Shown in pieces: positions 1 through 4,676 of a DNA stretch of 43,700 bases. Every line of letters starts with the position of its first letter. The first letter of the stretch is position 1. The position numbers and the translations under genes were made by a program. The notes below the pieces were generated by a model, which was not told the origin of the DNA, searched no databases, and worked only from the letters and a program-made list of their open reading frames with translations. The DNA is from Chitinophaga pinensis (GTDB lineage Bacteria > Bacteroidota > Bacteroidia > NS11-12g > UBA9320): contig CAMDSC010000020.1 in NCBI GenBank assembly GCA_945907065.1, positions 1 to 43,700 on the forward strand, given 5' to 3'.

Positions 1-2795
1 CTTCCTGTTGAACCACTTGTTTTACACACAGCCATCCATTCTATTATTGGTTTTGAAACGGATTTTAAATTATAAATACTTAATCGCATGTCGCCACCGG
101 TGCACCCAATTGTATCGGTAGGAATAGCAAAAAAAGGCAATGCTGTATCCACTTCTACTTTTGCCGAATAGGTATAAACCCTTCCCTCGCAGGCATTGTA
201 ATAAACCCGCCGATAGCGCCAATCGTTTTGGCTATATTTCAAATCTTGAAGGATTAATGTATCTGAAATTCTTCCTGTAAGTGTGTTCCAAATATTCCCT
301 TTATCAATGCTTCTTTGCCAAAAATTTGTAATTGTGGCTGTTCCTGTAACAGTTGATTTTAATACCATGTTGGTAGTTTTGCAACCCGCGGTATCATTTA
401 AATTTAAAGTAATTTTAGGAGGTTTAGTTGTGGCCGTTGGGGTAAAACTTTTGGCCACCATCCGCTGACTTTCACCACCTGTTTTAGAAATACTGCTCAA
501 TGAAAACCAATAAGTCACCCCATTATTTAATGGTCTTACTGTAAAAAAAGTATCCGAGCCTGAATAGATGGTTTGCATTTCTCCGGCCTTTAATTGAAAT
601 AATTTATAAGCAACTGCATCCTTTTGCTTTGGCCAACGAAAATGAACCTGACTATCACAAATTACTCCCACGAGGGTAGAAGGGATTTTATAAATGGTAA
701 ACGTAGTATCGCTTTGGTCAACATAAGTTCCTGCTGTTATTTTTATCAAAGCCTTGTTCGTATTTATGGTATCGGAGGCATTAGCCCACACATAATATTT
801 TTGACTAACTGGAACGGAACTTACAACCGTTTGCCAAGTGGTTCCTTTGTTTTCGGAGTATTCAATTTTTGCATTACCGGTTAAATTATAAGCATCCCAT
901 CGTATGGTTTTAGCTGCAACCGCTGATGATGGTGGCGAAAATGATTCCTGCCCGTTGGGATAAGTTACCGTTACTCCGGTATTTACCATATCCCAGGTTA
1001 ATGAATAATTTTGAAATGACGTAGTAATCCGTTTGCCATTTACTAAAATTATCAACCTTCCTGATGGTGGATTATCAATGGTTACCTGCTCTATATTATT
1101 AAGACTATCTTTCCCTCTTAGAGCCACAGCATTATGCGTTACAGTATCCAAAACCCAAGGTTTATAAACCGTTCCCAAACTGTCGATTACTGATAAATCC
1201 AAATCATTTACCAAGCAAGGTTTGGCTGGAATGGCCGCAGCTTTATCGTTCCAGCATAGCATTATTTTTAGTTTAAATAAACCCTTTGGAATTTTTAAAG
1301 TATCATAATCTGTAAAATTTTGTTTTATCGAATCCAACTGAAATGCTTTGGAATCTATAATCTGAACTGCCCGTCGGGCATTTAGACGTCCAAACCCATA
1401 TCTAAAATCGGGACCGGCATTTCCAATATCATCCGCTGAATTGGCCATAAAGTTTTTAGCTAAATGGGCATCCATCAGTACCCCGTATTTTTTAAAATAA
1501 TATTCATACACTAGGGCTGTGGTTCCACTGGTACCGGGGCAAGCCATACTGGTGCCACTAGAAAAACCATACCCATTATTTGGCACCGAACTATACACGC
1601 TAACCCCCACAGCACTAACCTCAGGTTTTAGCCGGCCATCACGGGTTGGGCCGCATCCACTAAAACTTGCATCGCCATCCAACTCCGTAACTGCTGCCAC
1701 TGCCAATACGTTTTTAGCACATTGAAAACCACTATTTATTGTTTTAAATCCTCCTGAACGGCAATTGCTGCCCCGTGAATTACCGGCAGCAAACACATGC
1801 AAAAGGTTCGGATATTTTTCAACTGTTAAATCCATCTCCCTGCTTATTTCATCATAATTTCCTCTTAGTACACAAGGGTCATCACCGGGACTGTAGGCAT
1901 ACGAATTTTGAGTAAGGGTATAACCATATTTTGGATAACAGGTGTCCATTTCTACAGGAATATCATTATTAAAATCCCAACTAAAAATACCTGCTTTTGG
2001 GGCCATTCCTTTGGCTGTAGGTTCAATATTTCCGGCACCGGCCATTGTACCGCAAACGTGGGTAGCATGGCTGCTTACTCCTACTTTTTTAACCACAGTT
2101 AGTCGATAATTAAAATCCTCGTGGTTGCCAACATCGCCTCCATCCCATTCGCCTATTTTTATTCCTTCGCCGGTAAGTCCTTTTCCGGGGCGGCTGTTAT
2201 CGCCAATTACATTTGCTCTGTGGTTATTTCTCTCTACAAAATTAAAAGCTTCCAATTTTTCATAAGTTGGCTCGGCCCAATATATTTCTTCAATATCCAA
2301 CAGAGGCAAATAACTCGGTTTTGCTTTTACATAAATAGTCTGAAAACCTTTATAAAATCTTAAAACCTCAAACCCTTTTTGTTCAATGCTTCGCAAAATA
2401 TTGGACACATCAGCAGTTTCAAAATATACCAGTTTTATTACACTTACCGAACGATTGGCCCAGCTTGATAAATCGGTTTTCATGACTGGGGTTATTTTTA
2501 AAATCCCAGAAACATTTTCGGGGAGTTGCTCTAATTTAAAATTTAAAGGTAGTGCTGCAAAAAAGCTGTTATCGGGTAAATAATTTAAAAGGTTAATACC
2601 TGTTTTTGTATAAAAATCATCGGTATTGGGCAGAGTTTTAAATTGAATTATAACAAAATGTTCTCTTGCTTGAAGTGTTGTTTTTTCAATAGAAGTTGGA
2701 AAATAATCACCGGATTTAAGATGAACCGGCGTTATTGATTGCGCCAAAACCCTTGTAAAAAAGCTTAAAAAAAACGTAAGTAGAAATAGCCTCAT
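1..2795 (-). CDS. Secreted subtilisin-like (S8) serine protease, C-terminus cut by window edge
   Basis: The minus strand is open from an ATG at 2795 to base 1 without a stop (931 codons). Residues 1-18 form a signal peptide ending in VLA-QS. A prodomain-like stretch follows to about residue 205. The S8 catalytic set is complete and in order: Asp218 (EWDGGDVG), His243 (SSHATHVCGTMAG), oxyanion Asn339 (AAGNSRG) and Ser416 (SGTSMACP). About residues 470-600 resemble the jelly-roll (P-domain-like) module that often follows S8 domains in Bacteroidota. After it come three Ig/FnIII-like modules (about 605-690, 700-780, 785-885). It is probably exported by Sec and then by T9SS, but the C-terminal sorting signal would lie outside the window, so that step is inferred. 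A promoter-like TACCTTCG stands 15 bp upstream. The substrate is unknown. Confidence 0.93.
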   Translation of the reverse strand, partial: MRLFLLTFFLSFFTRVLAQSITPVHLKSGDYFPTSIEKTTLQAREHFVIIQFKTLPNTDDFYTKTGINLLNYLPDNSFFAALPLNFKLEQLPENVSGILKITPVMKTDLSSWANRSVSVIKLVYFETADVSNILRSIEQKGFEVLRFYKGFQTIYVKAKPSYLPLLDIEEIYWAEPTYEKLEAFNFVERNNHRANVIGDNSRPGKGLTGEGIKIGEWDGGDVGNHEDFNYRLTVVKKVGVSSHATHVCGTMAGAGNIEPTAKGMAPKAGIFSWDFNNDIPVEMDTCYPKYGYTLTQNSYAYSPGDDPCVLRGNYDEISREMDLTVEKYPNLLHVFAAGNSRGSNCRSGGFKTINSGFQCAKNVLAVAAVTELDGDASFSGCGPTRDGRLKPEVSAVGVSVYSSVPNNGYGFSSGTSMACPGTSGTTALVYEYYFKKYGVLMDAHLAKNFMANSADDIGNAGPDFRYGFGRLNARRAVQIIDSKAFQLDSIKQNFTDYDTLKIPKGLFKLKIMLCWNDKAAAIPAKPCLVNDLDLSVIDSLGTVYKPWVLDTVTHNAVALRGKDSLNNIEQVTIDNPPSGRLIILVNGKRITTSFQNYSLTWDMVNTGVTVTYPNGQESFSPPSSAVAAKTIRWDAYNLTGNAKIEYSENKGTTWQTVVSSVPVSQKYYVWANASDTINTNKALIKITAGTYVDQSDTTFTIYKIPSTLVGVICDSQVHFRWPKQKDAVAYKLFQLKAGEMQTIYSGSDTFFTVRPLNNGVTYWFSLSSISKTGGESQRMVAKSFTPTATTKPPKITLNLNDTAGCKTTNMVLKSTVTGTATITNFWQRSIDKGNIWNTLTGRISDTLILQDLKYSQNDWRYRRVYYNACEGRVYTYSAKVEVDTALPFFAIPTDTIGCTGGDMRLSIYNLKSVSKPIIEWMAVCKTSGSTG

Positions 2796-2810
2796 AAAAA
2801 AATCAAGTTT

Positions 2811-2818
2811 CGAAGGTA
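2811..2818 (-). promoter_or_regulatory. Promoter -7 element (TACCTTCG) of the S8 protease gene
   Basis: Read on the minus strand this is TACCTTCG, one base off the Bacteroidota -7 consensus TAnnTTTG, 15 bp before the ATG. No TTTG box sits at the expected 19-21 bp. Four other genes in the window have the same TTCG form at a similar distance. Confidence 0.4.
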
Positions 2819-2854
2819 TGTAAAAATTATCAAATGAGATGGGATATATGGTAT

Positions 2855-3025
2855 ACAGTTCACTAAAGTGAACTGCAATAGATAGTTTGCAGCAATCATC
2901 CATTGCCGTTGGCTTCAGCCAACGGATAGAAAGAAAAATTCAAATTTGCTTTAGCATCATAATTTTTGGCTAAAGCCTATTGTCTTTTATTTTTTTACAG
3001 TTCACTAAAGTGAACTGCAATAGAT
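2855..3025. repeat. Composite array of four hairpins (REP/BIME-like) in a divergent promoter region
   Basis: The 372 bp between the divergent protease and atpD genes have no credible ORF. A 29-bp unit occurs identically at 2855-2883 and 2997-3025, 142 bp apart; each copy holds a perfect inverted repeat with 9-bp arms CAGTTCACT/AGTGAACTG. Between them lie a second perfect hairpin at 2906-2925 (arms CCGTTGGCT/AGCCAACGG, 2-nt loop) and a third at 2948-2976 (arms GCTTTAGC/GCTAAAGC). The sequences after the two 29-bp units are also loosely alike, so a larger unit was probably duplicated. Short dispersed hairpins of this kind are typical of REP elements mobilised by Y1 (RAYT/TnpA-REP) transposases. 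No such gene is in the window. Confidence 0.75.
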
Positions 3026-3132
3026 GGCTTCAGCAATTATCAATTAATAACTTTTCGAGGATTAAAAAACCACTCAAAAAGTTCCTTTCATTAATTTTTC
3101 CCCCAGCTATTTTATAATTAAATTTAAAAATC

Positions 3133-3140
3133 TATTTTCG
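3133..3140 (+). promoter_or_regulatory. Promoter -7 element (TATTTTCG) of atpD-atpC
   Basis: TATTTTCG lies 27 bp before the atpD start and matches TAnnTTTG except for T to C. A TTTA at 3111-3114, 18 bp upstream, is a poor -33 box. Confidence 0.45.
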
Positions 3141-3164
3141 CGGCAAAATTCACATATACCTTAA

Positions 3165-4676
<1,512 letters not shown>

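Follow-up and report, generated by a model that had tools for sequence, protein, structure and literature searches.

Introduction

Repetitive extragenic palindromes (REPs) have been tied to GTAG-type feet and to the classical REP-associated tyrosine transposases (RAYTs), and the literature sections drawn on here note atypical structures for a few other groups. TnpA-REP recognizes single-stranded REP DNA by its foot (GTAG) together with the hairpin, according to the cited passages of PMC8266576. Transposases of TnpA-Y1 subclass 1.2 are described, in the part of PMC6006769 cited here, as generally lacking the typical IS200 end structures and as carrying the signature Y---Q--HH. The CGTC family 1 REPs have an 8-bp stem, a 4-nucleotide (nt) loop and a tag at one end, and occur mostly as dimers; CGTC repeats were reported from Bacteroidetes among five phyla and are listed, in the sections cited, as not associated with transposase genes (PMC3733652). 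Here we analyze an array of four hairpins (A1, B, C and A2, in this order) that lies upstream of atpD in a genome assigned to Chitinophaga pinensis (Bacteroidota; Bacteroidia; NS11-12g; UBA9320). The window, meaning the whole stretch of 43,700 nt that was analyzed (assembly GCA_945907065.1, contig CAMDSC010000020.1), is an entire contig (C20) of this 2.70-Mb genome (G000), which is 99.9% complete and consists of 63 contigs.

The array consists of dispersed repeats of the REP or REPIN (REP doublets forming hairpins) type rather than of a fixed regulatory element. We consider it probable that it is a REP/REPIN-type cluster that was spread in trans by a subclass 1.2 transposase of a type found on a Cytophagales contig (L112) and absent here, and that it is now an orphan relic. 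With REPs, bacterial interspersed mosaic elements (BIMEs) and REPINs and their RAYTs, as described in the cited sections of PMC2817692, PMC3116915 and PMC8266576, it shares short, mostly extragenic hairpins with a 5' foot, inverted doublets, mosaics, compensatory stem changes, and a Y1 transposase gene beside array-type units in related genomes. Unlike in those descriptions, the foot in A1, B and A2 is ATTG (within ATCYATTG) and not GTAG or GTGG; there are tens of copies, not hundreds; G000 lacks such an enzyme; the units flanking the L112 gene are not inverted; and the associated transposase, with its Y---Q--HH, scores below the REP_Tyr_transpos cut-off (45.2 of 80). The array units share the 8-bp stem, the 4-nt loop, the tag at one end and the predominance of dimers with the CGTC REPs, but the latter, in the cited sections of PMC3733652, have the tag CGTC, a CCA tail in most cases and A/T at both of the first pairs of the stem, whereas the array has the tag ATTG and stems that begin with C-M-G-T. 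The array therefore resembles a REP/REPIN population but differs from canonical GTAG systems in foot, copy number and resident RAYT, and from the CGTC family as well. None of four 16-nt cores was found in the papers searched, and no report of REP-like units with subclass 1.2 transposases was found in the sections of the literature covered.

Results

An earlier note on this DNA had described four hairpins of three kinds (A-B-C-A) at 2855-3025 between divergent protease and atpD genes, and we found the hairpins and the gene setting as described. Its exactly duplicated outer 29-bp unit (2855-2883 = 2997-3025) is in fact a 30-bp identity, beginning at 2854 and 2996. The note's reading as a REP/BIME-type cluster is borne out by dispersed copies, inverted doublets and paired stem changes, and the genome search that it had proposed showed that the units are not unique in the genome. 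Units A and B have a common anatomy: the conserved foot ATCYATTG immediately precedes, on the 5' side, a palindrome of 20 nt that forms a stem of 8 bp closed by a 4-nt loop, and some A/B-type units could form a ninth stem pair. At up to 2 mismatches, A was found at 7 places in G000 (backward control, 0), and B was found at 4 places (control, 0), one of which is a coincidence in gltX. The 10-mer of C was found at 22 places, compared with 4 for its control, and C alone is therefore weak evidence.

To search for single A/B-type units, we used a covariance model (R1) built from 17 units preselected for perfect pairing; 150 candidates were scored per genome, so that the counts may be low. R1 detected in G000 at least 48 matches, corresponding to at least 39 palindromes at no fewer than 28 sites, at an expect value (E) of <=0.1, and at E<=1e-5 at least 16 matches at 10 or more sites. 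Among other members of the genus, there were at least 19 matches in G004, at least 23 in G006 and at least 2 in G005, and none among the 150 candidates scored in each of G001, G002 and G003. Two-sided changes were seen in 7 of the 8 stem pairs of the 17 preselected units, and their covariation score was 0.759, compared with 0.218 after shuffling. BLAST with a 115-nt composite gave 13 places in G000 at E<=1e-3 and 38 at E<=10, and matches in 4 of the 58 genomes searched, all of the same genus. The single match in G003 (25 nt) is probably no unit, because R1 finds none there, and the matches on contig C57 of G004 and contig C20 of G006 (L070 and L077) look like chance coding matches.

By a crude call of open reading frames (ORFs), 23 of the 28 R1 sites lie outside ORFs, 17 of them between tandem and 3 between convergent genes, with 1 divergent site and 2 edge cases that include the divergent site of the window; the remaining 5 are inside ORF calls. 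Foot-to-foot doublets, with starts 32 to 42 bp apart, are present at 7 sites of G000 including the window, and a same-strand pair, 36 bp apart, is found at C1:41774/41810. In gltX (C2:173853-173872; L231 and L314), a full B-type palindrome, CCGTTGGCTTTAGCCAACGG, stands in frame and codes for PLALANG, with an R1 E of 3e-5. In the five other genus members that gave a match (G001, G002, G004, G005 and G006), the protein can be aligned at this point without gaps, and the same holds for 13 of 14 more distant genomes, with G010 as the exception. Because the alignment of relatives shows no insertion, we took the gltX match as a chance palindrome and rejected a REP insertion at this site.

The doublets belong to larger composites. 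Within the window, A1 and B form a pair with their feet facing each other, and A2 has no partner (Table 1); the order C-A-foot..foot-B occurs in genome copies at C2:219976-220090 and C1:41701-41805, and an outer right palindrome, giving C-A..B-C', is found in four of the six Bacteroidota contigs retrieved by the A-plus-foot pattern (L111, L113, L115 and L116). We interpret the array in the window as a unit 1 without its left C, a remnant C', and then C-A of a unit 2 without its B. The arms of C, first taken for a hairpin of its own, are present, but they are better read as the edges of two neighboring composite units, the two arms then being remnants of the outer palindrome on the right side of unit 1 and of that on the left side of unit 2. 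In L115 and L116 a longer common spacer with CTCTCCC..GGG(A/T)AGAGG separates the feet of the doublet, as if the spacer had in turn been invaded.

In L112, positions 125-152 are an exact copy of the A unit and its foot. After a gap of 13 bp comes a Y1 gene (166-603), and behind the gene lies a B-like unit (638-665) whose stem has one mismatch. The L112 protein has the signature YIHRQEEHH, and 84 of 90 relatives have Y---Q--HH. The L112-type protein passes the NCBI cut-off for the IS200/IS605 family (58.4 over 55) and also matches Pfam Y1_Tnp; three L112-type proteins, at 45.2, 44.9 and 40.8 bits, do not reach the cut-off of 80 for REP_Tyr_transpos. Judged by its sequence, the L112-type enzyme is a subclass 1.2 IS200-like transposase, and it is likely the cognate of the array units. 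Signature and occurrence in Bacteroidota agree with the account of subclass 1.2 in the cited part of PMC6006769; unlike in that account, 37 of the 90 L112 relatives have two alike hairpins within 400 bp. The array itself differs from an IS200/IS605 element in that it lacks a transposase gene and has A1 and B joined foot to foot as a doublet, not as one left and one right end. As in a REPtron, an exact A unit stands beside a transposase gene in L112, and ATTG-footed hairpins of other sequence are found in 9 of the first 30 loci; unlike in a REPtron, G000 has no resident cognate gene flanked by array units. Across the class, 129 of 395 genomes gave a match to the L112 protein, and no relative with a solved structure was found by sequence at E<=0.001. 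A weak PADLOC match of Csn2 to L133 (E 4e-4), the only one, was taken as chance.

We then compared the hairpins beside L112-type genes with controls. Transposase loci were picked by protein similarity alone, and hairpins were counted as stems of at least 8 bp within 400 bp. The 90 loci are the first 30 with loci and the next 60 by score, among the matches listed, and some genomes give more than one locus; the first 30 were split into 17 and 13 at 163 bits, a dividing score set after seeing the data. The 17 best-scoring loci had 31 hairpins, compared with 1.3 in shuffles, and 21 of the 31, in 9 of the 17 loci, had an ATTG foot. Nine other Y1 loci of the genus had 2 hairpins (shuffles, 0.95), neither with an ATTG foot. 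All 90 loci together had 186 hairpins, with at least one in 73 loci, two or more in 55 and two alike in 37. In the atpD control (26 of 29 loci, those of at least 4400 bases), there were 20 hairpins, with two or more in 2 loci and two alike in none; two alike hairpins were likewise absent from the 9 other Y1 loci of the genus and from 30 distal flanks. The difference in alike pairs (37/90 versus 0/26) gave a Fisher p of 9e-6, with loci that are not fully independent. It is these alike repeated pairs that carry weight, because a single hairpin beside a gene is ordinary.

Of 395 genomes, 26 gave some match to the pattern, and under a foot-plus-palindrome rule (at least 7 pairs, loop of at most 5, G-T allowed) 9 of these 26 had a ATCCATTGC-type match. 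A strong relative of the L112 protein (E<=1e-40) was present in 4 of these 9 genomes and in 32 of the 386 others (p 0.005). Long "double-foot" hairpins with the ATTG foot inside the stem, such as TATTGCGACGGG..CCCGTCGCAATA, were seen at L151 (G354), L296 (G111) and L307 (G287).

A Pfam search of G000 found a single Y1 gene, at C5:8171-8515, which is truncated by a stop directly after the catalytic motif and is flanked by GACCCCTTCGGGGTC-type palindromes unlike the array units. Its clade and the L112 clade are separated with full support on the tree (9 versus 32 rows). Members of this other clade of the genus also have Y---Q--HH, and the signature alone therefore does not define the L112 clade. 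Six Y1 matches (L121, L125 and L128-L131), for which there was no tblastn match, were left off the tree. The earlier note had observed that the source transposase is not nearby; this holds and extends to the whole genome, which gave no match to the likely cognate at E<=1e-20 and in which the sole Y1 gene found is truncated and of another clade. The note had suggested looking for a Y1 gene flanked by the array hairpins; the one in L112 has the exact A unit before it and a B-like unit behind it, whereas the Y1 gene of G000 has other palindromes. With its different clade and the other palindromes beside the loci of that clade, the resident gene is disfavored as the source of the array. The resident gene (L008; L028:8168-8536, C5) is some 4 kb away from a further array made of the repeat family found in the window.

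L119 (G005:C189), a member of the L112 clade in a congener, has four flanking hairpins, three of the form CTCCGCCTTTTAAGGCGGAG and one of a CCCGCC type, with head and foot unlike those of the array units. Two near-identical Y1 genes in G006 (C7:111054-111296 and C20:9250-9495; L129 and L130) have ACGAGTT..AACTCG hairpins around them and the motif YIHNNP, as given for subclass 2.6. At L121 (G002:C34), a reading frame resembling Y1 passes into tandem GHDSTM repeats where the contig ends.

Folded as single-stranded DNA, the region 2850-3050 reached -35.5 kcal/mol, compared with -17.5 (standard deviation, 2.9) for 200 dinucleotide shuffles (z -6.3), none of which folded as well. Rfam covariance models gave no match at E<=1 within 2300-3500, and no array hairpin scored as an intrinsic terminator.

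AtpD was present in 55 of the 58 genomes searched and was not found in G005. The array was absent upstream of atpD in all five congeners compared (G001, G002, G003, G004 and G006), where homology to the atpD upstream region starts at about 3078 (G006), at 3093 (G004) and at 3035 (G003, 73% identity). A block kept in these genomes lies downstream of the array, and within it TATTTTCG, at 3133-3140, resembles the Bacteroidota -7 promoter motif, which makes the block a candidate atpD promoter. The proposed roles of the array as an insulator or in leader RNA are therefore unsupported, because the array is missing in the five congeners and the conserved block lies downstream of it. Conservation in place across relatives, which had been named as the sign of a fixed element, was not seen at this locus.

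Table 1. Features of the hairpin array and its surroundings in the window
Feature	Position	Strand	Basis
A1 hairpin, head of REP unit, CAGTTCACTAAAGTGAACTG, 20 nt, 8-bp stem, 4-nt loop	2856..2875	-	R1 match 2856-2883 minus, 45.2 bits, E 2.2e-8
A1 foot, minus-strand reading ATCTATTG	2876..2883	-	sequence; R1 match
B foot, ATCCATTG	2898..2905	+	sequence; R1 match
B hairpin, CCGTTGGCTTCAGCCAACGG	2906..2925	+	R1 match 2898-2925 plus, 47 bits, E 7.5e-9
Inverted doublet A1-foot..foot-B, REPIN-like, starts 42 bp apart	2856..2925		R1 matches
GCTTTAGC, read as right outer palindrome remnant of unit 1 (left arm of C hairpin)	2948..2955		interpretation from unit layout
GGCTAAAGCC, read as left outer palindrome of unit 2 (other arm of C hairpin)	2968..2977		interpretation from unit layout
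A2 hairpin, CAGTTCACTAAAGTGAACTG, exact copy of A1, no B partner after it	2998..3017	-	R1 match 2998-3025 minus, E 2.2e-8
A2 foot	3018..3025	-	sequence; R1 match
Block kept upstream of atpD, with TATTTTCG at 3133-3140, candidate atpD promoter	3112..3152	+	alignment of G000, G001, G002, G003, G004, G006
Subtilase-family protease gene (Peptidase_S8), start at 2795, cut off by contig end	1..2795	-	domain match
atpD, ATP synthase beta subunit	3168..4676	+	gene call, relatives

Discussion

In the history that we favor, a small HUH/Y1 transposase of the L112 type would have bound the folded foot and hairpin on single-stranded DNA, by analogy with TnpA-REP and its GTAG foot plus hairpin. The enzyme would have cut the units, mobilizing them and spreading doublets in trans, and would later have been lost from the genome while the units remained. 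We call the array an orphan relic because its likely cognate is not present in the genome.

Several observations weigh against this history. A search of G000 with the L112 protein gave nothing at E<=1e-20, so that the likely cognate is absent from the assembly, and of the Y1 genes of the genus on the tree (seven genomes) a single one, L119 of G005, falls in the L112 clade, and its hairpins are different. The two units flanking the L112 gene have the same orientation and are not inverted as described for RAYT genes; orientation is mixed in L136, L142 and L145. The 13 lower-scoring of the first 30 loci had 14 hairpins (shuffles, 0.85), none of them with an ATTG foot, and the next 60 loci had 141 hairpins (shuffles, 3.3), of which 24, in 15 loci, had this foot under a lenient rule. 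The foot differs by lineage, since other loci have feet such as GTTG; it shows no clustering on the tree of the transposases (the value was as low in 117 of 500 shuffles), and we rejected ATTG as a clean clade marker. A lone hairpin is common beside genes, with at least one in 18 of 26 atpD loci compared with 73 of 90 transposase loci. No strong relative of the enzyme is present in five of the nine foot-plus-palindrome genomes, among them G000 and G006. The p values are rough, because loci that come from one genome, or from related ones, lack independence. The copy number is far below the more than 100 per genome usual for REPs, and R1 gives false positives, such as gltX at E 3e-5. Sister species (G006 or G004) have the arrays at coaD, uvrA and a recF-like gene in the same places, with hairpins that are decaying, which speaks against a simple mobile picture. 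Finally, there is no clean empty site at atpD, where such a site is unreadable because the neighboring upstream sequence differs between congeners.

The repeats could instead have been dispersed by another enzyme, for example of the Y1 lineage of the genus, by recombination or by horizontal transfer, and we regard this as unlikely. The missing L112-type gene, the unclustered foot and the five foot-plus-palindrome genomes without a strong relative speak for such a mover, as does the proximity of the sole Y1 gene found in G000 to another array on C5. However, the Y1 clade of the genus is flanked by other palindromes (GACCCCTTCGGGGTC and similar), neither of the two hairpins with a stem of at least 8 bp at its nine loci is ATTG-footed, and the unit that ends just before the L112-type gene is an exact A unit with its foot.

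Protection of transcript 3' ends and binding of gyrase or of nucleoid proteins are host functions that have been claimed for enterobacterial BIMEs. That the units have been kept for such a function appears very improbable to us. It would fit the arrays at coaD, uvrA and the recF-like gene that sister species hold in place, but the copies held in common are decaying. At uvrA, pairs of the A hairpin are broken in G000 and G006, and most of this hairpin is deleted in G004. Only one clear compensatory pair was seen by eye among the shared arrays, in the recF-like B hairpin, and the copy number is low.

A regulatory element of this locus, with hairpins that act as an insulator between the divergent genes or as a structured leader in the RNA of either atpD or the protease, would suit the divergent intergenic position and the strong fold, but it is hardly credible given similar units at up to 27 other sites, the predominance of tandem contexts (17 of 28 sites), the absence of the array upstream of atpD in five congeners, the conserved block downstream of it and the lack of a terminator among its hairpins. 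The present effect of the array at atpD is probably nil or slight.

The array that we attribute to an L112-type enzyme points to a little-studied group of transposases beside whose genes repeated hairpins of similar build are often found. On balance, we lean toward the view that subclass 1.2 Y1 transposases include a large Bacteroidota branch of REP-maintaining enzymes with ATTG or GTTG guide feet and with hairpins (8-bp stem, 4-nt loop) that are specific to the lineage and often paired foot to foot, as a second REPtron-like system beside the GTAG RAYTs, and that the array has outlived its enzyme. ATTG is a testable new foot, and the genus has sister species with and without the repeats, so that the fate of a repeat population without its enzyme can be followed. 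If this view is true, it would suggest that REP-like populations have arisen more than once from IS200-like enzymes.
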